From: Roseivivax halodurans JCM 10272
GTDB lineage: Bacteria; Pseudomonadota; Alphaproteobacteria; Rhodobacterales; Rhodobacteraceae
DNA length: 64,000 nt
Assembly: GCF_000521785.1 (NCBI RefSeq)
Contig: NZ_JALZ01000014.1
Location: 1 to 64,000, forward strand
Direction: 5' to 3'
In this document: positions 7,776-19,946 of the stretch, in pieces
Position numbering within the stretch: the stretch's first letter is position 1
Layout of the letters: the number at the start of each line of letters is the position of its first letter
The notes under the pieces: generated by a model
Databases searched by the model: none
What the model saw: only the letters and a program-made list of their open reading frames with translations
What the model was told of the DNA's origin: nothing
Program-made: the position numbers and the translations under genes

Positions 7776-9041
7776 TTATTCTGTCGCCCAGCCGGGCAGA
7801 TCCCCGGCGGGCTTGATCGTTCCGGTGCAGGCGCCGAAGCCGACGCGGTAGCCGTCGCCCTGCGCGGCGCCGCGCAATGTCACCGTATCCCCGTCCTCGA
7901 GAAAGCTGCGTGTCTCGCCGCTGTCGAGCGTCAGAGGCTCCTTGCCGCCCCACGAGAGCTCCAGCAACGAGCCGAACGCGCCCGGCTCCGGCCCCGAGAT
8001 CGTGCCCGAGCCCAGGAGGTCGCCGACCCGCATCGGGCAGCCCGATGTCGTGTGATGCGCGAGCTGCTGCGCCGAGGAATAGTACATCTCGCGGTAATTC
8101 GTGCGCGCGATCACCGTCTCCGCGCGGCCTTCGGGCGCGAGACCGACCTCGAGGGCGATGTCGTAGAGCATCGGGCCCGGCTCGCGCAGATAGGGCAGAA
8201 GCTCCCGCTCGCGCTCGGGCGTGCTCACCCGGAACGGCTCCAGCGCCGCCCTCGGCACGATCCAGGGGCCGATCGTCGTTGCGGTCGCCTTGGACTGGAA
8301 CGGCCCGAGCGGCTGGTATTCCCAGGCCTGGATGTCCCGCGCCGACCAGTCGTTCAGCAGCACGTAACCGAAAATCATCTGGTCGGCCTCGGCGACGCTC
8401 ACCATACCCTCCGAGGGCCGGCCAACCACCGCCCCCAGTTCGAGCTCGAGATCGAACCGCGCGCTCGGCGCGAAGCGCGGCAGATCCTCGTCCTGCCCCT
8501 TGATCTGGCCAAAGGGGCGCCTGACGCCCGTGCCCGAGACCACCACCGAAGACGCCCGTCCATTGTAGCCGATCGGGATCGACAGCCAGTTCGCAGGCAG
8601 CGCGTTCTCGGCCCCGCGGAACATCGTCCCGACATGGGTTGCGTGATGCTTGCCTGCGTAGAAGTCGGTATATTCCGAGACGCGGAAGGGCATGACCATC
8701 CGCACATCCGCCTGCCGGACCAGATAGCCCGCCAGCATCCTCGCATCGCCCGAACCCTCGGCGAGCATCTCGCCCAGCGCCGCGCGTAGCCGCGCCCAGG
8801 CCCCCGGCCCGAGACCCATGAACGCCGTCCAGTCGCACCCCTCGAGCACCTTCCCCGCGCCGGGCTCGATCTCGATCCGCCCGTCCGCCTCGAGCCGGGT
8901 GACATCGAGGATCATCTCCCCGATCGCCACGCCGCAATGCGCGCCGCCCTCCACGGCGAAGGCGCCGTAGGGCAGGTTGTTCAGCGGAAAGTCGGTCTCA
9001 GCCGAATTCGCGCTCTCCACCCAGCTTCGCTCGAGGCTCAT
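7776..9041 (-). CDS. fahA: Fumarylacetoacetase
   Basis: Hydrolyses fumarylacetoacetate to fumarate and acetoacetate, the last step of homogentisate degradation, in the cytoplasm. 421 residues, normal length. It has the N-terminal SH3-like domain typical of FAH (start SWVESANSAETDFPLNNLPYG) and a C-terminal FAH fold with DWSARDIQAWEYQPLGPF and GSGTISGPEPGAFGSLLEL. GGAGAAG lies just before the ATG. It follows hmgA after a 97-nt gap holding a stem-loop repeat. No maleylacetoacetate isomerase gene lies between them or elsewhere in the window. Confidence 0.97.
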   Translation of the reverse strand: MSLERSWVESANSAETDFPLNNLPYGAFAVEGGAHCGVAIGEMILDVTRLEADGRIEIEPGAGKVLEGCDWTAFMGLGPGAWARLRAALGEMLAEGSGDARMLAGYLVRQADVRMVMPFRVSEYTDFYAGKHHATHVGTMFRGAENALPANWLSIPIGYNGRASSVVVSGTGVRRPFGQIKGQDEDLPRFAPSARFDLELELGAVVGRPSEGMVSVAEADQMIFGYVLLNDWSARDIQAWEYQPLGPFQSKATATTIGPWIVPRAALEPFRVSTPERERELLPYLREPGPMLYDIALEVGLAPEGRAETVIARTNYREMYYSSAQQLAHHTTSGCPMRVGDLLGSGTISGPEPGAFGSLLELSWGGKEPLTLDSGETRSFLEDGDTVTLRGAAQGDGYRVGFGACTGTIKPAGDLPGWATE

Positions 9042-9069
9042 CTCTTCTCCGAGAGGCGCGCGCCCCTGA

Positions 9070-9127
9070 TTCTTCTTGGCAAAAATACTCCGGGGGAGGC
9101 GCCGCAGGCGACGGGGGCGGAGCCCCC
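9070..9127 (-). repeat. Stem-loop-plus-tail dispersed repeat, copy A
   Basis: On the minus strand a GC-rich hairpin (GGGGGC/GCCCCC around 9113-9127) is followed by the tail GGAGTATTTTTGCCAAGAAG and three more shared bases (9070-9092). The 23-base tail is identical to copy B at 56358-56380 and diverged in copy C at 52785-52807. The repeat sits between hmgA and fahA, in the orientation of transcription. Confidence 0.8.
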
Positions 9128-9138
9128 TCCCCGCCAGG

Positions 9139-10500
9139 TCATTTCACCCCCGGCGTGCCGTCGAACTTCTTCTCGATCCCGTCCCAGCAATCGACGTAAT
9201 CGTCCTGCAGCGGCGCCTCGCGCCCGGCAAACTCGGTCAGGTGCTGCGGGAAGCGTGTCTCGAACATGAACGACATGGTGTCGTCGAGCTTGGCCGGCGC
9301 GAGCTCGGCGTTCGACGCCTTCTCGAAGGCCTCCCGGTCCGGCCCGTGCGGCAGCATCATGTTGTGCAGGCTCATGCCGCCCGGCGCGAAGCCCTGGGGC
9401 TTGGCATCGTATTGCCCGTAGATGTTGCCCATCAGCTCGGACATGACGTTCTTGTGGTACCAGGGCGGGCGGAACGTGTCCTCCGCCACCATCCAGCGCT
9501 CGCGAAAGAGCACGAAGTCGATATTGGCGGTGCCCTCGATGCCCGAGGGCGCGGTCAGCACGGTGAAAATCGACGGATCCGGATGGTCGAAGAGGATGGC
9601 GCCCACCGGGCAGTAGGTCGAAAGGTCGTATTTTACCGGCGCGTAATTGCCGTGCCACGCCACCACGTCGAGCGGGCTGTGCCCGATCTCGCAGCTGTGG
9701 AACTGACCACACCACTTGATGGTGAGCGTCGAGGCGACGTCGCGATCCTCGAAGGCCGCCACCGGCGTCTTGAAGTCGCGCCGGTTCGCCATGCAGTTCG
9801 CCCCGATCGGGCCGCGCCCCGGCAGATCGAACTTCTGGCCGTAATTCTCGCAGACGAACCCGCGGCACGGCCCGTCCAGAACCTCCACGCGGTAGACGAG
9901 CCCGCGCGGGATGATCGCGATCTCCTGCGGCTTCAGGTCGATCACGCCCAGTTCCGTCGAGAACCGCAGCCGCCCCTCCTGCGGGACCACCAGCAGTTCG
10001 CTGTCGGCGGAGTAGAAATAGGCGTCCTCCATCGAGGCGGTCACGAGATAGATGTGGCTCGCCATGCCGACCTGGATGTTCACGTCGCCGGCGGTCGTCA
10101 TCGTGCGCATGCCGGTCAGCCAGGTCAGCTGCTCCTCGCTGTGCGGCACCGGATCCCAGCGATACTGGCCGAGGCTGGTGACGCCCTCTGGCACGTGTGG
10201 CGCGCTCTTCCAGTAGGGCAGATCAATCCGGCGATAGCGCCCCGAATGCTTCACGCTCGGGCGGATCCGGTAGCACCACGTCCGCTCGTTCTGGTGGCTC
10301 GGCGCGGTGAAGGCGGTGCCCGAGAGCTGCTCGCCGTAGAGACCGTAATTGCATTTCTGGGGCGAGTTCATGCCCTGCGGCAGGGCGCCCGGAAGCGCCT
10401 CGGTCTCGAAGTCGTTGCCGAACCCCGGCATGTAGCCCTCGGTCGTGCCGCCGCTCCCCGCCGCGCGGACCATGCCGTTCGGAAGCTCCTGAGATGTCAT
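9139..10500 (-). CDS. hmgA: Homogentisate 1,2-dioxygenase
   Basis: Fe(II) ring-cleavage enzyme converting homogentisate to maleylacetoacetate; cytoplasmic, normally hexameric. 453 residues, full length. Family blocks include [19 protein letters not shown] at the N terminus, the iron-ligand region [14 protein letters not shown] (His and Glu), and [11 protein letters not shown] (His). GGGAGAGAGG precedes the ATG. It is the first gene of the minus-strand operon and is transcribed divergently from a MarR gene, with inverted repeats between them. Control by that regulator is likely but inferred. Confidence 0.98.
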
Positions 10501-10557
10501 GTCCTCTCTCCCTTCCCCGGGCCTCCTCCAGCCCGATTCGAGTTGGGACCAGTATTC

Positions 10558-10590
10558 GTTGCATGCGCAACAACGTCAACAAAGTCGTTG
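10558..10590. promoter_or_regulatory. Candidate MarR operators between hmgA and marR
   Basis: GTTGC-N4-GCAAC (10558-10571) is directly followed by CAACG-N10-CGTTG (10571-10590). The TTGCAT half-site occurs twice in this 33-nt stretch, midway between two divergent start codons (10500 and 10645). Dyads in such a place are typical of autoregulated MarR systems. Binding is inferred. Confidence 0.55.
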
Positions 10591-10644
10591 CATTTGAGAC
10601 GAACGGGCCCGAAAGTCCGGCCATCCCCAGCCGACGAGAGGCCC

Positions 10645-11085
10645 ATGAGCCGCGATCTGCCCGATTTCGACCTGTCCCGCTTTCTGCCCTACCGGCTGAC
10701 CGTGGCGAGCGACCGCCTGAGCGCGGGCCTCGCCCGCCGCTACCGGACCGAGTTCGGGATCTCGAATGCCGAATGGCGCGTGCTCGTGCATCTCGCCGAT
10801 GCGGGCGAGGTCTCGATCCGCGAGCTCGAGGCGCGGGTGCATCTCGAGAAATCCAAGGCCAGCCGCGCCGCCTCGCGCCTCGTCGAGGCCGGCCACGTCA
10901 CCAAGCGGCCCAATCCCGAGGACAGACGGCTCGTCCGCCTTTCCCTCAGCGATCGCGGCCGCGCCCTCATGACCGAGCTTCTGCCCATGGCCGCCTCCTA
11001 TCAGGAGCGCCTGGAGGCGGTGATCGGCACTCACATGGACGACCTCGAAGCCGCGCTCGAGGCGATCATGGAGGCGGATCTGTGA
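10645..11085 (+). CDS. MarR-family regulator of the homogentisate operon
   Basis: 146 residues with start MSRDLPDFDLSRFLPYRL. The winged-helix core is visible: EWRVLVHLADAGEVSIRELEARV for the first helices, then LEKSKASRAASRLVEAG for the recognition helix, and a wing with DRRLVRLSLSDRG. It is divergent from hmgA across 144 nt containing paired inverted repeats. MarR regulators beside homogentisate genes usually respond to an aromatic intermediate; the ligand here is unknown. Confidence 0.9.
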   Translation: MSRDLPDFDLSRFLPYRLTVASDRLSAGLARRYRTEFGISNAEWRVLVHLADAGEVSIRELEARVHLEKSKASRAASRLVEAGHVTKRPNPEDRRLVRLSLSDRGRALMTELLPMAASYQERLEAVIGTHMDDLEAALEAIMEADL

Positions 11086-11195: not shown

Positions 11196-12602
11196 ATGAA
11201 CGTCTTCTGGACAGCCGCCACCGGTGTCCTCGCCATCGGCATCGTGGCGTTCTGCGTCTGGCGCGCGATCTCGACGGCCCGAACGCCGCAGGGCTCGGTG
11301 GCCTGGGTGATCTTCCTGCTGAGCGCGCCCTGGTTCGCCGTCCCCGCCTACGCCGTCTTCGGGGGCCACCGGATCCGCTCCTACACCCGCTCCCGTCAGC
11401 GCAGCCGCGCGCTCACCTCGACGCTCAAGGACCAGGCGCCCCATCCGCCGGCCGAGGTCGCGAGGTCGCGGCTCGCGGTCTTCGAGCGGATCGTGAACCT
11501 TCCGGCGACGGGCGGAAACTCCGCGACCCTTCTGATCGACGGGCACGAGACCTTCGCCGCCATCTTCGAGGCGATCGACGCTGCAAAGCACAATGTCTGC
11601 GTGCAGTTCTACACCATCGTCGACGACGCAACCGGCAAGGCGCTGGCAGACCGCCTCGTCGCCGCGGCGCAGCGGGGCGTGACCGTCCGGCTGCTCTTCG
11701 ACGGCGTCGGCAGCTACGGGCTCTCCCGCTCCTATCGCAGGCGGCTGTCCGAAGCCGGCGTGCAGATCATCGACCCCCGCGCGGCCCGCGGCCCCACCTC
11801 GCGCCGCAACATCAACTTCCGCAATCACCGCAAGACCGTCATCGTCGACGGATCACTCGGGTTCATCGGCGGCCACAACGTCTCGGACACGTATATGGGC
11901 CGAAACCCGCGCTACGGACATTGGCGCGACACCCATCTCGCCCTCCGCGGGCCGATCGTGGCGCAGCTCCAGCTCATCTTCGCGGAAGACTGGCACTGGG
12001 GCGCCGGCGACCTGCTCACCAGCGAGCTGACCTGGGATCCCGGCCTTCAGGGCGACGACATGCCCGCCGTGCTGCTTCCCACCGGCCCGGCCGACGCCAC
12101 CGAGGCGGGCGCGCAGACCTTCTTCGCGGCCATCGCGGCGGCGCGGAAACGGCTCTGGATCGCATCCCCCTATTTCGTGCCCGATGCCGGAACCCTCGCC
12201 GCCCTGAGCAATGCCTCTCTCAACGGCGTCGACGTTCGGGTGATCCTCACCGGAAAGATCGATCATTACCTGCCCTGGCTCGCCGCCCATGCATTTTTCG
12301 ACGACATCCGGACCGACGGCGTCCGGATCTATCGCTACCAATCGGGGTTCATGCACCAGAAGGTCATTCTCTGCGACGACGATCTCGCCCTCGTCGGCAC
12401 CACGAATTGCGACATCCGCTCTTTCCGTCTCAATTTCGAAACCATGGCCGCCATCTGCGACGAACGTTTCGCCTGCGATATTGCGCGAATGCTCGAGGCC
12501 GATCTCGCGCAATGCGAGAAATACGACACGCCATTAACCGAGGCGCCCGTCTGGATCCGGATCGGCTCCACCTTCGCCCGCCTGCTCGCGCCGGTGCTCT
12601 GA
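11196..12602 (+). CDS. cls: Cardiolipin synthase-like phospholipase D protein
   Basis: 468 residues with two N-terminal membrane segments (about residues 3-22 and 35-57) followed by a cytoplasmic domain carrying two HKD motifs: HRKTVIVDGSLGFIGGHN and HQKVILCDDDLALVGTTN. This is the bacterial ClsA-type layout, which condenses two phosphatidylglycerols into cardiolipin and glycerol. It overlaps the next gene by one base (TGATG), so the pair is translationally coupled. Confidence 0.92.
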   Translation: MNVFWTAATGVLAIGIVAFCVWRAISTARTPQGSVAWVIFLLSAPWFAVPAYAVFGGHRIRSYTRSRQRSRALTSTLKDQAPHPPAEVARSRLAVFERIVNLPATGGNSATLLIDGHETFAAIFEAIDAAKHNVCVQFYTIVDDATGKALADRLVAAAQRGVTVRLLFDGVGSYGLSRSYRRRLSEAGVQIIDPRAARGPTSRRNINFRNHRKTVIVDGSLGFIGGHNVSDTYMGRNPRYGHWRDTHLALRGPIVAQLQLIFAEDWHWGAGDLLTSELTWDPGLQGDDMPAVLLPTGPADATEAGAQTFFAAIAAARKRLWIASPYFVPDAGTLAALSNASLNGVDVRVILTGKIDHYLPWLAAHAFFDDIRTDGVRIYRYQSGFMHQKVILCDDDLALVGTTNCDIRSFRLNFETMAAICDERFACDIARMLEADLAQCEKYDTPLTEAPVWIRIGSTFARLLAPVL

Positions 12603-13653: not shown

Positions 13654-16419
13654 ATGACATATTACAGCTACCAGAATTACTACCGGACATACGAGTGGAC
13701 CGCGTTCCGGGAATCGGACCTGCTCAAATCCGGGGATCGTGATCTCGGCTACGGCGACTGCTTTACCATGCCGGCATCCTCCACCGTCTGCCTTGCCACC
13801 GTGGACAACGACGGCACCCTCTCGGGCGACACTTACTGCGACGAGAACGCGGATGACCGCACGGGCCAGAACGCCTGGGTCGACGGCGAGCGTGTGGGCG
13901 GCCAGCTCTACGCCGAAAGCTACCACGTCCTGAAGGGCGCGGACGGCAAGATCTACTACCTCATCGAGATCGAGATCGAGGGCACCCACGACGATTACTT
14001 CTCGTTCTACGGCGACGTGCCGCCAGCCGGCCTGAAGCTGACGCTGGTCCAGACCTGTGCCGTGAACGGCGACTGGGTCGACTACAAGTGCCTCGACGCG
14101 GGCCCCAAGGAGCCGCCGGTGGAATACGGTTCGGTCTCGGGAACGGTCTGGTGCGACGATTGCGACGGCATCCAGGACTACGAGATCACCTACGCGAAGG
14201 GCGCGGATGTCTGGTGCGACAGCGTCACCTACGAGAGCGTGACCTGCACCACCTACAACGTCTGCGATTACGGCAGCTGGAAGAGCACCGCCGCCCAGGT
14301 CATCGACATCGTGGTGGGCAGGGACCAGGGCCACAACGGCAACGCCTACGACAACACGATCGTGGAGCTCGACAAGGGCGGCGTCTGGACCCGGGACTTC
14401 TACCTCGGCGAGGGCGGCAAGTTCTGCCTGACCTTCGACACCTACAAGAACTTCTGCGTCGATGACGAGGGCAACACCTTCGGCGTCAAGGTCAACGGCG
14501 TCTACGTCCAGACCGTTGTCGTCACCGCGGATGGCAAGGTCGAGATCAGCCTCGATCTCGCCAAGGGCTACAACAAGATCGAATTCGTCTCGAAGTCGGA
14601 CGTGACCGGCTTCGGCGCCGGGATCGACAACACCGAGCTGGTCAAGCTCAAGGAGGTCTCGACCTTCGCCGAGATGCCCAAGGCGGGCGTGACCGTGAAG
14701 CTGATCGACGCCGCAACCGGCGATGTCGTGGCAGAGACCGTGACCGATGCCGACGGCAACTACCGCTTCGACGACGTGCCGGTGGGCGACTACAAGATCA
14801 TGGGCGTCGCGCCCGACGGGACCGAGTTCACCATCCAGAACGCCGGCAGCGACGACAGTGTCGACAGCGATGTGGACAAGAACGGTCTGTCGGACACCTT
14901 CACCGTCAAGAAGGACCAGAACACCGACATCGACCTCGGCCTCTGCGAGAAGGACGCCGAGCCCGGATCGCTCTCGGGCCGCTACTTCTGCGACACCAAC
15001 GACAACGACCAGGACGACGGCAATGGCGGCGAACCCGCGGTGCCGGGCGTGCGGGTCGCCCTCTTCGACGCGGCCGGCAACGCGGCGGTGGATATCGACG
15101 GGAACGCGGTCGCTCCGGTCTTTACCGACAGCAACGGCAATTATTCCTTCACCAACCTCGCTGCGGGCTTCTACACGGTGAAGTTCACCGACCCGAACGG
15201 CGTTCTGGCGGGCAAGCAGCTCGTCACCGCCAATGTCGGCAACGACGCCAGCGACAGCGACGCGATCGGCGACACCACCCTGTCCGTGATCGCGGCGATC
15301 GAGGTCAAGGAGGGCGAGAACACCCCGGACAACGACGCGGGCGTGGAATACGTGAACGAGGATCCGACCGCGACGGACGATGCCGGCAAGGGCTGCGCCG
15401 ACGAGCTCATCTTCGTCGACTTCTCGGACAACTTCGCCGACAGCGACAGCGCCTCGGTCGGCATCACGCAGATCGGCGGCATCGACATCGCCGACGGCGA
15501 AACGGTTGTCGTGGGCGGGGTCAATGTGACCCTGAACGGCGGGGTCTTCTCCTTCGACGGCGAGGCCGCTTACGAGTACCTCGACTTTGGCCAGAAGGCG
15601 AACCAGACCTTCACCGTCACCGTCGAGGACAGCGACGGCGGCAGCGCCACGGCAGAGATCGACGTGTCCTTCTGCGGCGTTGCCGAAACCGTCGAACAGC
15701 TCAACGCCACCATCCCCGCCGGGCCGTTCAGCTTCCAGATCGCCGACGACTTCCAGGACGCCCCTGCCGGCGAGGACGCCTATACGCTGGTAATAAACGG
15801 CACAGGCGACGCGCGCTTGGACGGCGTGGCATTCGAAGAGGCCTACTGCATCAGTTTCTGGGACAATTACGAGGCAGGCGAGACCGTCGCCGACGCTCCG
15901 GTGGTGACCGGAGCCTCGATGACGACCGGCACGGACGGCAGCGTCTTCGACGATATCCCGAACGAACAGGTTGCCAGTGCGGTCAACGGCCTGTCCGCCG
16001 CGGAAAACCTCGACATGGTCAACTGGATCCTCGCCCAGGACTTCGGCTCGGCCGGATACTCCGAATGGGAAATCCAGTTCGCGATCTGGGACCTGACCGA
16101 CAATTGGGATCCCAGCTCTGTCGGCTCCAGCAATGCCGCGGTTGGGCTCAACAACAGCTACGAGAACGGGCGTATCAGCGTCGCCATGCTCGACAGTCCG
16201 TTCTTCAGCCCGACCTTCGCTGCAGAAGTCGACCAATCCGATGTCGACTTCATCCTGAACGAGGCACTCGCCAACGGTGAAGGCTTCGAGTTCGGAGGTG
16301 CCGGGGATACGAGCGGACTGGCCAGCTTCATTGTGACGGGTGATCCTGAAGATGCGGCGAACCAGCAGCCGTTCATCTTCACGGTTCCCCTCGGCGAGTT
16401 CGACTGCCTGTGTGGCTAA
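13654..16419 (+). CDS. Large SdrD-type surface protein with candidate thioester domain
   Basis: 921 residues, very acidic, no Sec signal peptide and no C-terminal anchor. Visible modules: a Cys-containing N-terminal domain (1-155); an SdrD B-type repeat starting near 159 (GSVSGTVWCDDCDGIQD), interrupted by a beta-rich jelly-roll-like domain (about 172-340), then resumed (AGVTVKLIDAATGDVVAE to about 430); a second SdrD repeat (438-569); a VCBS/cadherin-like module (570-675); and a C-terminal domain with YCISFWD (Cys732) and EIQFAIWDLTDN (Gln808), which resemble the Cys and Gln motifs of thioester adhesins. Type I secretion is possible but unproven. It lies immediately upstream of the exosortase E genes. 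Confidence 0.8.
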   Translation: MTYYSYQNYYRTYEWTAFRESDLLKSGDRDLGYGDCFTMPASSTVCLATVDNDGTLSGDTYCDENADDRTGQNAWVDGERVGGQLYAESYHVLKGADGKIYYLIEIEIEGTHDDYFSFYGDVPPAGLKLTLVQTCAVNGDWVDYKCLDAGPKEPPVEYGSVSGTVWCDDCDGIQDYEITYAKGADVWCDSVTYESVTCTTYNVCDYGSWKSTAAQVIDIVVGRDQGHNGNAYDNTIVELDKGGVWTRDFYLGEGGKFCLTFDTYKNFCVDDEGNTFGVKVNGVYVQTVVVTADGKVEISLDLAKGYNKIEFVSKSDVTGFGAGIDNTELVKLKEVSTFAEMPKAGVTVKLIDAATGDVVAETVTDADGNYRFDDVPVGDYKIMGVAPDGTEFTIQNAGSDDSVDSDVDKNGLSDTFTVKKDQNTDIDLGLCEKDAEPGSLSGRYFCDTNDNDQDDGNGGEPAVPGVRVALFDAAGNAAVDIDGNAVAPVFTDSNGNYSFTNLAAGFYTVKFTDPNGVLAGKQLVTANVGNDASDSDAIGDTTLSVIAAIEVKEGENTPDNDAGVEYVNEDPTATDDAGKGCADELIFVDFSDNFADSDSASVGITQIGGIDIADGETVVVGGVNVTLNGGVFSFDGEAAYEYLDFGQKANQTFTVTVEDSDGGSATAEIDVSFCGVAETVEQLNATIPAGPFSFQIADDFQDAPAGEDAYTLVINGTGDARLDGVAFEEAYCISFWDNYEAGETVADAPVVTGASMTTGTDGSVFDDIPNEQVASAVNGLSAAENLDMVNWILAQDFGSAGYSEWEIQFAIWDLTDNWDPSSVGSSNAAVGLNNSYENGRISVAMLDSPFFSPTFAAEVDQSDVDFILNEALANGEGFEFGGAGDTSGLASFIVTGDPEDAANQQPFIFTVPLGEFDCLCG

Positions 16420-16425
16420 AGCATC

Positions 16426-16452
16426 GGCTGCCGCGCAATCCGCGCGGCAGCC
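16426..16452 (+). terminator. Stem-loop after the surface-protein gene
   Basis: A perfect 11-bp stem, GGCTGCCGCGC with GCGCGGCAGCC and a 5-nt loop, begins 7 nt after the stop codon. The U-tract is weak (GTTAACC), so it may reduce rather than stop readthrough into the VPEI-CTERM gene. Confidence 0.6.
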
Positions 16453-16541
16453 GTTAACCGTGGCATGGGCTGCGGTTCAGACGGACCGGCTCATTCTTTG
16501 AGAGCCGACCTCACGATGGTTAACTTGAAACGGAGTAAATC

Positions 16542-16727
16542 ATGAAGAAACTCATTATCGCATCTTCGGCCATGCTGGCCTCCGCGCCGGCCTTCGCCGG
16601 CCCCGGCAGCATGTTGCCGCCAGCCACTGCCGTTCCCGAAATCAGCGCCCTCGAAGGCATGGCTGCGATCGCAGCTCTGGCCGCCGTCATGATGCTGGTC
16701 TGGGAACGCCGCCGCCGCGCGATGTGA
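16542..16727 (+). CDS. VPEID-CTERM-type exosortase E target protein
   Basis: 61 residues: a Sec signal peptide (MKKLIIASSAMLASAPAFA), a very short Gly/Pro-rich mature segment, then the sorting signal VPEISALEG, a hydrophobic helix and a terminal WERRRR cluster. This is the tripartite layout of PEP-CTERM-like sorting signals. The family signature is VPEID; here the fifth residue is Ser. The partner exosortase E is encoded directly downstream, with a 4-nt overlap if translation starts at GTG 16724. The short mature part suggests a small surface or EPS-associated peptide. Confidence 0.88.
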   Translation: MKKLIIASSAMLASAPAFAGPGSMLPPATAVPEISALEGMAAIAALAAVMMLVWERRRRAM

Positions 16728-18475
16728 TCGCTGCGGCGACCGCACCGCGCCTGACCGGGCCCGCCCCCAGGGGTGGGCCCATTCCGCCCGAGGCCTCTGC
16801 CGCCAGATTTCCCGAAACCCGCCGAGCCAGAGTGTCCCGTCCCGTGAGCATCTCCGTTGATCCGTCGATCAGGTCCCGCCCGTCCTACACGGGCGTTGCC
16901 GTCATTGCCGGGCTCGCGCTCCTGCTCGCGGCCGAGCTGGCCGGGATCGGGATCGTCTACAAGCACCGCATCGACTTCTACTGCATCGACAACTGGCCGC
17001 CCGCCGCCTGCCGCGCCGCCAGCCGGACGCTCGTCTCGATGTACTGCGTCCTCGGCGCGCTTGCATTGACGGCCATGCTGCGCCCCGCGCCCTTCCGGAC
17101 GCTCAGCGCCGGGGCGAGGTTCAGGCCCCTGCCCCTCGCCCTGAACGCCATCGGGATCGCGCTGGCATTCGTGCCGCTGAGATACCTCGTCGCGGGCGAG
17201 GCGATGGACAAGGTCCTCCCCGCCTTCGCCTTCTGGACGCTCGGCATGGGGTTCATCCTCGCCGGGCTAATGCTCTGCGTCGCGCCGCTCTCCGGCTGGC
17301 GGCGCTTCCTGCGCGACGCCGGCGGCGCGATCCTGCCAGCGATCGGCGCTGGCCTCGTCGCGCCCTGGCTCGCCGTGCTGATCCGCCCGGCCTGGCGCAG
17401 CCTCGACGAGATCTCGGCCGTCACCTTCGCCGCCGTCACCCAGCTGATCGGAGCCCTCGGCTACGATGTCGCGACCGATCCCGAGCGCCGCATCATCGGC
17501 ACCGAGACCTTCTCGGTCTCGGTCAATCCCTCCTGCTCCGGCATCGAGGGCCTCGCCCTCGTGACGCTCTTCGTCACGCTCTATCTCTGGCTCTTCCGCG
17601 CCGAGCTGCGCTTCCCGCGTGCGCTGCTGCTCTATCCCGTCGGGCTTGCCGCCTCGGCCCTCTTCAACGTGGTGCGCATCACCGCGCTTCTGGTGATCGG
17701 GTTCGAGGGCAATCCCGAACTCGCGGTCGGCGGCTTCCACTCCCATGCCGGCTGGCTGATGTTCACCCTCGTCGCGCTCGGCCTCATCGCCCTTGCGCAG
17801 ACCTTGCCCGGGTTGAAGGTCCCCGCCGCCACGTCCGGCCCGGTCGCCCCCATCCGCACAGTTCTTCCCTTCTGGCAGGATCCCGTCGTGGCCCGGATCC
17901 TGCCCTTCGCGACCTTCATGCTCGGAGCGCTCCTCGCCTCGGCCTTCCTGATGCAACCCGCTCTCGCCTACCCCGCGCGGGCGGTGGCCCTGATCGCGGT
18001 GATGGCGCCGTTCTGGCCGCTCTACCGCAGCCTCGGCTGGCGTGCCGATCCGGGTGCGATGGGCGTCGGCGCCCTCGTCGCCGCGATGTGGATCCTGATC
18101 CCCGTGCCCGCCGCGGAGGCGCCGCCCTACGGCGCGCTCTCCGGCGGCCTTCTCGCGCTCTGGATTCTGGCCCGGGGCATCGGAACGACGCTTCTGATCC
18201 CGGTGATCGAGGAGCTGTTCTTCCGGGATTATCTCGAAAGCCGGATCCGGCGCGGCTCCGGCCCTCTCTGGGCCATCGTCGCGGCCCTCGTCTCCGCGGG
18301 CCTCTTCGCCGCGCTGCACGACCGCTGGGCCGAGGCCTTCGTCGCCGGGCTCGCCTTCTCCTGGCTCGCCCGCCGCTCCGGGGGGCGCATCGCCGACGCG
18401 ATCCTCGCGCATGGCCTCGCCAACGGGCTGATCTTCGCCGCGGCGCTCGCGACCGGCAGGTTCGAGATCATCTGA
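16724..18475 (+). CDS. xrtE: Exosortase E / CPBP protease fusion (VPEID-CTERM system)
   Basis: 583 residues from GTG 16724; a GTG at 16844 (543 residues) is equally possible because the first 40 residues are Pro/Ala-rich and non-membrane. The N-terminal half is a multi-spanning exosortase with the conserved Cys (NPSCSGIEGL), Arg (NVVRITALLVIGFEGN) and His (GGFHSHAGW), a transpeptidase-like triad. The C-terminal third is a CPBP/CAAX-type intramembrane protease with EELFFRDYLESR and AALHDRW. This fusion defines exosortase E. It should cleave and sort the upstream VPEI-CTERM protein; the role of the fused protease is unknown. Confidence 0.93.
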   Translation: MIAAATAPRLTGPAPRGGPIPPEASAARFPETRRARVSRPVSISVDPSIRSRPSYTGVAVIAGLALLLAAELAGIGIVYKHRIDFYCIDNWPPAACRAASRTLVSMYCVLGALALTAMLRPAPFRTLSAGARFRPLPLALNAIGIALAFVPLRYLVAGEAMDKVLPAFAFWTLGMGFILAGLMLCVAPLSGWRRFLRDAGGAILPAIGAGLVAPWLAVLIRPAWRSLDEISAVTFAAVTQLIGALGYDVATDPERRIIGTETFSVSVNPSCSGIEGLALVTLFVTLYLWLFRAELRFPRALLLYPVGLAASALFNVVRITALLVIGFEGNPELAVGGFHSHAGWLMFTLVALGLIALAQTLPGLKVPAATSGPVAPIRTVLPFWQDPVVARILPFATFMLGALLASAFLMQPALAYPARAVALIAVMAPFWPLYRSLGWRADPGAMGVGALVAAMWILIPVPAAEAPPYGALSGGLLALWILARGIGTTLLIPVIEELFFRDYLESRIRRGSGPLWAIVAALVSAGLFAALHDRWAEAFVAGLAFSWLARRSGGRIADAILAHGLANGLIFAAALATGRFEII

Positions 18476-18536: not shown

Positions 18537-19265
18537 CTAGCTCACCGGCTCCTTGGCCAGACCCTTCCCGAGTATCGGTCCCGTCGGCAGGTTCGTGGGG
18601 GATCCGCCCGCCGGCTCGAAGGTGATTTCGTAGAGCTGATCGGAATGGGGCGCAGGCAGGCCGTCGACCATCAGGACGCTGGATCGCGCCGTGGGCAGAA
18701 GGCCGAGGGAGACCGGAAGCCCGTCGTCGTCCGGCTTGGTCCAGACCTGCATCACCTGATCGGGTGGCACGCCCGGCCGCTCGAGGAGGGTCACGCTGGT
18801 GGTGTTGTCCGCATTGCTTTCGACGAGCGCGATGACCGCACCGCTCTCGTCCTGCAGGACGGCCACGACAAGCGGATCGACACTGCGCGTCATCGTCCAG
18901 CCGAGAAGCCCCGCGAGCACCAGGGAGGCCGCGATGGCGGCGGACGCCCCGACGCGCCAGCGGTTCAGGTGGCGGCGCATCGTGGCGAGATCCACGACCG
19001 TGTTGTCCCTCGCCGGCCTGGCCGCATCGTCCTGCGGTGCGTCGAGCGCACGGGCGATCCTGTCCCAGAGACCGGCGGGCACGGGAAGCTCCTCGGCGGT
19101 GTCGTCGAGCGGTGCGAAGCGCCGGCGCGCCTGCTCCACGCGTGCCGCCACGTCGGGGTCCTGCGCGGCGAGCGCCTCGAGGCGCGCGACATCCGCCTCG
19201 CTGGCGAGCCCGAGGACGACCTCGTCGATCAGAATATCAAGAGACCGATCCGTCACGACAGACAC
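18537..19265 (-). CDS. Anti-sigma factor (RskA-like)
   Basis: 242 residues. The N-terminal cytoplasmic anti-sigma domain (about 1-75, with ILIDEVVLGLASEADVARLE) is followed by one membrane helix near residues 105-127 and an extracytoplasmic anti-sigma-K domain (QVMQVWTKPDDDGLPVSLG). This is the RskA layout, where the outer domain senses a signal and regulated proteolysis frees the sigma factor. The gene overlaps the ECF sigma gene by 13 nt. It converges with the exosortase gene, leaving only 61 nt between them. Confidence 0.92.
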   Translation of the reverse strand: MSVVTDRSLDILIDEVVLGLASEADVARLEALAAQDPDVAARVEQARRRFAPLDDTAEELPVPAGLWDRIARALDAPQDDAARPARDNTVVDLATMRRHLNRWRVGASAAIAASLVLAGLLGWTMTRSVDPLVVAVLQDESGAVIALVESNADNTTSVTLLERPGVPPDQVMQVWTKPDDDGLPVSLGLLPTARSSVLMVDGLPAPHSDQLYEITFEPAGGSPTNLPTGPILGKGLAKEPVS

Positions 19266-19783
19266 TCCCTCAACTTCATGAGCCCGCGCCGGACCCGAGA
19301 CTTCACCGAACCGAGCGGCGCGTCGAGGCGCCCGGCGATTTCACCGTGGCTGTATCCCAGAACATAGGTCGCGAGGATCGCCCGGCGGGACTCGCCGTCG
19401 AGCCTCTCGAGACAGCGCCGGAGATCGGACGCATGGCCCAGCCGGTCGAAGGCCGTCTCCAGCATGACGTCGTCGGGTGGTGTATCGAGATCTTCCGGCG
19501 CCACCGGAACCTCTCGGTCCTCGTTCCGCAGCATCGTCAGGCAGCGGTTGCGCAGGATCGTGTAGAGCCATCCCCGCGCGTTGCCCCGGCTCTCGTCGAA
19601 CTGGTGCGCCTTGCGCCAGACGAGAACCAGCGCCTCCTGCAGCGCCTCCTCGGCGAGGTCGGTGCGACGAAGTATCCGCCGCGCCACACCCAGCATGCGG
19701 CCGCCCTCGGCGGTCATGAGCTGATGAAGCGCGCCCTTGTCGCCTCTGGCGCAGGCTCGGATCAAGGCGGCGTGGTCTGTCAC
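19253..19783 (-). CDS. ECF RNA polymerase sigma factor (SigK-like)
   Basis: 176 residues from GTG 19783; the frame stays open to a TTG at 19840, but that extension is basic and atypical. Sigma-2 region: LTDLAEEALQEALVLVWRKA type, with WLYTILRNRCLTMLR. Sigma-4 region: GYSHGEIAGRLDAPLGSVKSRVRRGLMKLR. It is followed by its RskA-like anti-sigma factor. A DUF4394 gene lies upstream on the same strand, 163 nt away, and is a natural candidate for the regulon. Confidence 0.93.
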   Translation of the reverse strand: MTDHAALIRACARGDKGALHQLMTAEGGRMLGVARRILRRTDLAEEALQEALVLVWRKAHQFDESRGNARGWLYTILRNRCLTMLRNEDREVPVAPEDLDTPPDDVMLETAFDRLGHASDLRRCLERLDGESRRAILATYVLGYSHGEIAGRLDAPLGSVKSRVRRGLMKLRECLS

Positions 19784-19946
19784 GATAAAGGCGGCTCCCG
19801 ATGGTCCACGCTTCTTGTCGCGGCGGGAGCGCCCTGTCAAACCACCGCGGCACGGGGTTCGGGCTTCCGGGCCTGCCCTGCCGCCCGGGACATGCTGCGC
19901 GCCGCGAAAGGTGTCCCCCCGCGACGCGCCTCTTGCCGTCAGGCGA

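Follow-up and report, generated by a model that had tools for sequence, protein, structure and literature searches.

A large protein with a predicted thioester domain recurs beside exosortase E and its VPEI-type mini-peptide in Roseivivax halodurans and its relatives

Does exosortase E (XrtE) have a partner beyond the tiny peptide encoded next to it? The question is raised by a 64,000-nucleotide stretch of Roseivivax halodurans JCM 10272 DNA (positions 1 to 64,000 of contig NZ_JALZ01000014.1; the window), part of a genome of 4.49 Mb in 149 contigs. Three consecutive plus-strand open reading frames (ORFs) occupy positions 13654–18475 and encode a 921-residue protein (13654–16419), a 61-residue peptide (16542–16727), and XrtE, an exosortase fused to a CPBP/Rce1-like protease (16724–18475). 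The initial annotation, made from the sequence alone, had described this series of surface protein, peptide, and fusion, and all three ORFs lie where it had placed them. The same arrangement is conserved in other loci, which disfavors chance, and the three genes form a genuine unit that recurs. New here is the identity of the C-terminus of the large protein as a predicted thioester domain. The literature searched yielded no paper on XrtE or VPEID-CTERM, a prior mention being possible, so that the product of exosortase E is obscure there; no paper combining PEP-CTERM and a thioester domain was found either. A recurrent neighbor with a predicted reactive thioester offers this little-understood sorting system a likely partner and a function that can be tested.

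The three proteins and the C-terminal domain of the large one

The C-terminal domain of the large protein (residues 682–921, positions 15697–16416) is, as judged from conserved residues and predicted fold, a thioester domain. Published thioester domains carry a [YFL]C motif, a TQxxΦW motif, and a weak ΦQ motif (PMC6194298, PMC4450167). In an alignment of ten C-terminal domains, three elements are invariant: a Cys in AYC-like surroundings, the motif QxAIW, and a late Gln. In the window protein, these correspond to C732 (YC motif), Q808 and W812 (TQxxΦW-like motif), and Q905 (the candidate thioester Gln), followed by C918-x-C920. Among 50 sequences, the Cys is retained in 49 and the motif Gln and Trp as well as the late Gln in all 50, while the two C-terminal Cys residues are kept in 47 and 48; the residue preceding the motif Gln is Ile or Val, not Thr. 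All three motifs of a thioester domain (Cys, TQxxΦW-like, and C-terminal Gln) are therefore present. An AlphaFold2 model of the domain (predicted local distance difference test, pLDDT, 81) was compared with the PDB using Foldseek, and the top two of 154 matches at E ≤ 10 were thioester domains, 5a0l (E 9.7e-6) and 5a0n (E 6e-3), with TM-scores of 0.42–0.49, i.e., a similar but not a close fold. PF08341 matched seven of the ten aligned members at E ≤ 10 (best E 4.9e-7). The same model matched none of 240 class genomes, including the window's own, indicating that it misses this family; a profile search of the domain against PDB sequences gave no match, and NCBIfam offered no thioester model for it. 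From these residues and the modeled fold, we infer that a thioester may form in this domain. The initial annotation missed this domain, the key part of the large protein.

The remainder of the large protein (ATG at 13654, stop codon at 16417–16419, with an in-frame TGA two codons 5′ of the ATG by eye) consists of several domains. Residues 1–151 (13654–14106) form a conserved N-terminal domain, for which 27 sequences were aligned; its model (pLDDT 87) is β-rich, and Foldseek found no PDB match at E ≤ 0.001. SdrD_B (PF17210) is well over its cut-off (two stretches counted, E 1.2e-29, 103 bits against 29.7), the better of the two spanning residues 343–430 (14680–14943). Residues 460–531 (15031–15246) are the best stretch for the SpaA-like prealbumin model PF17802 and are probably a second SdrD_B-type domain. 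Pfam, NCBIfam, and hydropathy revealed no C-terminal sorting signal, i.e., no sorting motif, helix, or basic tail, and the hydropathy scan revealed no membrane segment or leader. Indeed, the hydropathy peak in the first 60 residues is 1.35, as against 1.5–2.4 in the signal peptides of eight peptides compared. A hidden sorting tail or signal peptide was rejected on these grounds, and the description of a 921-residue multidomain surface protein without a sorting signal of its own is borne out. In two relatives (L075 and L088), the N-terminal domain is encoded ahead of the thioester ORF and not in the same open frame; their large genes may be frameshifted or misassembled.

The third ORF scores 388 bits against TIGR04162, the exosortase E/protease of the VPEID-CTERM system (cut-off 150), with PF09721 and PF02517 covering its two parts. 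The exosortase triad (C271, R318, and H339) and the CPBP residues (E496, E497, R501, and H532) are present in the window and invariant in 25 XrtE sequences. The start of XrtE is uncertain, as the GTG at 16724 overlaps the stop codon of the peptide gene and the match to its family does not set in before residue 64. The peptide, of VPEISALEG type, shows a signal peptide, a stub of ~12 residues (cleavage site placed by eye), VPEI, a helix, and RRRR. It scores 30.4 bits against VPEID-CTERM TIGR04161, just below the curated cut-off of 33, and is filed by its sequence as a near relative of the family rather than a scored member. Of five peptides adjacent to thioester genes, this one included, the four of VPEISALEG or VPEISAMHG type fall just under the cut-off, and one (VPEIDATAG) passes. 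The exosortase E/VPEID-CTERM system named in the initial annotation is thus recognized from the fusion and its catalytic residues, and the peptide has the motif, helix, and Arg tail even though it scores under the cut-off; XrtE would be expected to act on it.

The peptides next to thioester genes share further features, examined in 39 sequences (35 from the domain-search loci described below, plus the window, L046, L051, and L052). Between residue 14 and VPEI, 23 contain exactly two Cys residues, 3 to 10 residues apart, and 16 contain none; an odd count never occurs (p 6e-11, an estimate that ignores relatedness). The simple reading is that this pattern suggests a small, optional disulfide loop in the mature mini-peptide. 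The peptide gene follows the large gene by 99–177 nt, and a stem of at least 9 bp was computed in 34 of the 39 gaps, compared with 13% of letter shuffles; in the window it is a GC-rich stem-loop directly 3′ of the large gene (16425–16453, plus strand; 12-bp stem, no U-run). Such a stem also occurs within 48 nt in 5 of 11 peptide-less relatives, so it is not specific and may be ordinary.

Linkage of the large gene with the peptide and xrtE

In a sample of 198 family genomes, TIGR04162 was found in 24, at 25 loci, two of them in the window's genome. The surroundings of the 24 loci outside the window were fetched, and a relative of the large protein, with the window's protein as query, lies directly upstream in 10 of them, i.e., in 11 of 25 with the window included. 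The second xrtE locus of the window's genome (L035; contig C53, ~8531–11014) has only a remnant of the N-terminal domain and no thioester domain, the reading frame of its VPEISALE peptide looks broken, and its XrtE belongs to another branch than that of the window.

The linkage was also viewed from the large protein. Named genome contigs were searched with the C-terminal thioester domain, yielding 58 loci, and peptides were sought within ~700 nt by the pattern [VIL]PEI with a basic end, which misses other tags. A peptide follows the large gene in 35 loci. In 27, all with a peptide and six of them seeds, xrtE lies within 700 nt (on the opposite strand in L062), and in L065 it lies at 6 kb. The co-occurrence within about five genes that the initial annotation had proposed as a check is accordingly found in 11/25 xrtE loci and 27/58 domain loci, with one more at 6 kb. 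A further seven loci have the peptide adjoining the large gene and no complete xrtE in the fetched locus, indicating a linkage between peptide and large gene that is independent of a neighboring xrtE; five of these have xrtE elsewhere in the genome. The large gene as a chance neighbor was rejected, given its relatives upstream of xrtE and the linkage among the 58 loci. When ORFs of at least 80 residues were clustered, no other gene was common to many loci among the clusters listed; those found in more than ~10 loci were ORFs overlapping two genes of the block in another reading frame (judged by a single example of each) or belonged to the broad family of ABC-transporter ATPases.

Forty-six loci are of Rhodobacteraceae type, as judged from titles (L059–L097, L099–L103, L107, and L108), and six of these repeat seeds (L059, L061, L069, L071, L090, and L108). 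L115 (Albimonas; a weak match without peptide or xrtE) was left out, and adding it leaves the picture unchanged. The two censuses overlap in genomes, and the near-copies L091/L093 and L060/L075 were counted apart. Eleven of the 46 lack the peptide: L064, from a genome with xrtE at L063, plus ten more from genomes where xrtE was not found. Of the 35 loci with the peptide, 33 come from genomes that contain xrtE, compared with 1 of the 11 peptide-less loci; after removal of the six seeds, the counts are 27/29 and 1/11 (p 8e-7, not corrected for relatedness). Overall, 28 of 40 non-seed loci are in xrtE genomes, compared with 24 of 198 family genomes. VPLPA, PEP, or VPDSG peptides near peptide-less relatives were rejected after a pattern scan of 13 loci, including the gammaproteobacterial L104 and L105; the sole match, in L073, lacks a membrane helix and resembles a chance hit.

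On an XrtE tree of 47 rows (after six duplicates were dropped), with L035 labeled adjacent on the basis of its N-terminal domain only and L045 labeled non-adjacent despite gene and peptide on another contig of its genome, the adjacency label requires 3 changes, compared with 12.3 in shuffles. Distances of XrtE and of the thioester domain are correlated over 28 loci (r 0.55, reached in 0/2000 permutations), which implies co-inheritance only. In the XrtE branch that lacks the large gene, most of the peptides found are longer, with ORFs of 54 to 121 residues, and most are of VPEID type. In another alphaproteobacterial family, an XrtE locus (L150) has tiny VPEIS/APEVS peptides at 9328–9495 and 11698–11931 and no large partner; an ORF near this XrtE resembles an extracytoplasmic function (ECF) sigma factor by eye.

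A relative of the large protein is encoded in Verrucomicrobiae bacterium DG1235 (L098). Its N-terminal domain is 57% identical to that of the window protein, and its thioester domain was matched at E 5e-31 by a query from which it was absent. A 59-residue VPDSG-CTERM protein (41.5 bits, cut-off 22) is encoded 371 nt downstream of the large gene, and the genome holds exosortase C (XrtC; 609 bits, cut-off 300). None of 285 further genomes sampled around DG1235 showed the thioester domain, so transfer is likely. L098 may represent a second pairing of a thioester protein with an exosortase-type mini-peptide; it is one case, and chance is possible. Another verrucomicrobial locus (L160, 1198–2016, minus strand) encodes a small protein with a signal-peptide-like start, a thioester-like domain, and a VPDSG-like tail in one chain; both Pfam matches are just below their cut-offs and NCBIfam gives nothing, so it is taken as a hint only.

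Possible roles of the large protein

Gene linkage, the thioester motifs with their predicted fold, the absence of a signal peptide, and co-distribution are all apparent from sequences and models, and the linkage gives good support to an exosortase E variant that includes a thioester-domain protein. The reading that we favor, at a rough probability of 0.45, is one surface system in which a type I-exported thioester adhesin or matrix protein works with the XrtE-processed stub of the mini-peptide and bonds covalently to matrix or surfaces. The large protein would be a Cys–Gln thioester adhesin or matrix protein that lacks a signal peptide and most likely leaves the cell through type I secretion. 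The mini-peptide would be exported by Sec and then processed by XrtE, leaving a stub of ~10–20 residues on a surface carrier or matrix, and this stub would hold, orient, or license the large protein at the surface. The thioester would then form covalent bonds with amines or hydroxyl groups of the matrix or of surfaces. Some contact or physical dependence between the peptide and the large protein is presumed in this reading. Concrete read-outs for exosortase E would be a mass loss of 17 Da, a methylamine adduct, and localization in an xrtE deletion. If this reading is true, thioester adhesins extend to signal-less secreted proteins of Gram-negative bacteria.

Large stalked proteins without a signal peptide are also known among type I-secreted adhesins of the LapA/RTX type. 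The window protein resembles them in its stalk and its lack of a signal peptide, and genes of PrtD and HlyD type lie near four of the 58 loci; it differs in that no RTX repeat was found among Pfam matches at E ≤ 0.1 and no known retention module was found. Compared with the known exosortase E/VPEID-CTERM system (TIGR04162 and TIGR04161), the block has the same XrtE fusion and tiny VPEI-type target in one gene block, whereas its recurrent form adds a third, large thioester-domain protein. With Gram-positive thioester (TIE) adhesins such as SfbI, the large protein shares the Cys, TQxxΦW-like, and Gln motifs, the matches to 5a0l and 5a0n, and an SdrD_B stalk (PMC4450167, PMC6194298). It has none of their N-terminal thioester domain, Sec signal, and LPXTG anchor; here the thioester domain is at the extreme C-terminus and is encoded with an exosortase. 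PEP-CTERM/EpsH systems tied to exopolysaccharide (PMC1569441) likewise have an exosortase and a tripartite C-terminal tag, and several loci have exopolysaccharide-like neighborhoods by eye; unlike in those systems as described there, the large protein here carries no tag itself, the tag being part of a separate mini-peptide. In a published survey, nearly half of fibrillar-adhesin-like proteins lacked a known anchor (PMC8286594).

The export route is suggested to be type I secretion by the genes nearby. PrtD-type and HlyD-type genes lie 1 to 8 kb from the thioester gene in four loci, identified by models over cut-off in L062, L098, and L105 and by clustering in L104. In the two gammaproteobacterial loci, L104 and L105, a further gene separates the thioester gene from the type I secretion genes; it is TIGR02466 by model in L105 and by eye in L104.

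Several observations weigh against the favored reading. With 15.7 bits, the window domain does not reach the gathering score of PF08341 (cut-off 22). HlyD/PrtD pairs were seen near just the four loci mentioned (clustering covered L059–L108); in the window's genome, two PrtD-type transporters score over cut-off, both on other contigs and none near the window. Two loci with the peptide, L075 and L076, have no xrtE found in the genome. All ten remaining peptide-less Rhodobacteraceae-type genomes with a thioester-domain protein lack xrtE, six of them having another exosortase, which shows that the large protein can do without peptide and xrtE. Conversely, 14 of 25 xrtE loci have no large partner, 12 of them in one XrtE branch. 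The third component proposed in the initial annotation is therefore upheld in part, by co-occurrence in 11/25 xrtE loci and 27/58 domain loci, and is incomplete in view of those 14 loci and ten genomes. Its further suggestion, that the peptide serves the large protein as receptor or anchor, would be one possible role. Counted by genome, 14 of 198 have the C-terminal domain, 11 of them together with xrtE (1.7 expected, p 2e-9), a census that is partly circular because the model was built from domains beside xrtE in the same genomes; without the 10 of these 11 genomes that supplied the search model, xrtE is present in 1/4 (p 0.27). In a class-wide sample of 385 genomes, xrtE was found in four and the domain in two, both together only in the window's genome. 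The linkage argument accordingly rests on adjacency and the non-seed loci, not on the census p-value.

The separate occurrence of XrtE and the large gene, in those 14 xrtE loci and ten genomes, fits a doubtful but still sizeable alternative in which XrtE and its peptide work as a surface system of their own, and their place in one operon or island with the large protein serves joint regulation alone, as part of a common biofilm or matrix program with no physical dependence between them. The seven loci in which the peptide adjoins the large gene without a complete xrtE nearby, and the pairing with a different exosortase in one verrucomicrobium, speak against this. Rather unlikely, in our estimate, is a broader scheme of split-anchor sorting, in which a type I-secreted protein without a tag of its own would capture an exosortase-mounted mini-peptide or its carrier through its internal thioester, so that two chemistries make one covalent surface attachment; in Verrucomicrobia, a new tiny peptide would have tied the same protein family to the local exosortase.

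A little less probable still is that the thioester domain is itself the anchor and bonds the XrtE-processed peptide, by its free N-terminal amine, or the peptide's carrier, giving a two-step covalent attachment. Six loci (L051, L052, L067, L068, L071, and L080) have kept the peptide and the thioester domain and lack the N-terminal domain in ORFs not cut by a contig end, which would make the thioester domain the kept part; many of the sequences checked are themselves part of the N-terminal-domain profile used. The comparison is also biased, as most loci were collected via the thioester domain, and the decayed L035 shows the opposite, an N-terminal domain without a thioester domain. Lys is absent between residue 18 and VPEI in 33 of the 39 peptides (present in 6), leaving mainly the N-terminal amine, and the thioester Cys is replaced by Gly in L082, from an xrtE-less genome; yet nine other peptide-less, xrtE-less Rhodobacteraceae-type proteins still have this Cys, and published thioester domains bind external targets such as fibrinogen (PMC4450167). 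Direct action of XrtE on the large protein, e.g., at the C-terminal Cys-x-Cys, is very improbable: both Cys residues are highly conserved, as noted above, but the protein lacks a sorting motif, helix, or basic tail, and the Cys-x-Cys is also kept in the xrtE-less genomes of L073, L086, L100, and L103.

Surroundings of the block

Rfam and tRNA scans of the window gave nothing that bore on the three-gene block. In several loci, neighbors resemble exopolysaccharide synthesis genes by eye; the one that was scored had PrsT as its best model, with 145 bits, below the cut-off of 312. In the window, genes for an ECF sigma factor and an RskA-type anti-sigma factor (18540–19840, minus strand) are convergent with the block.

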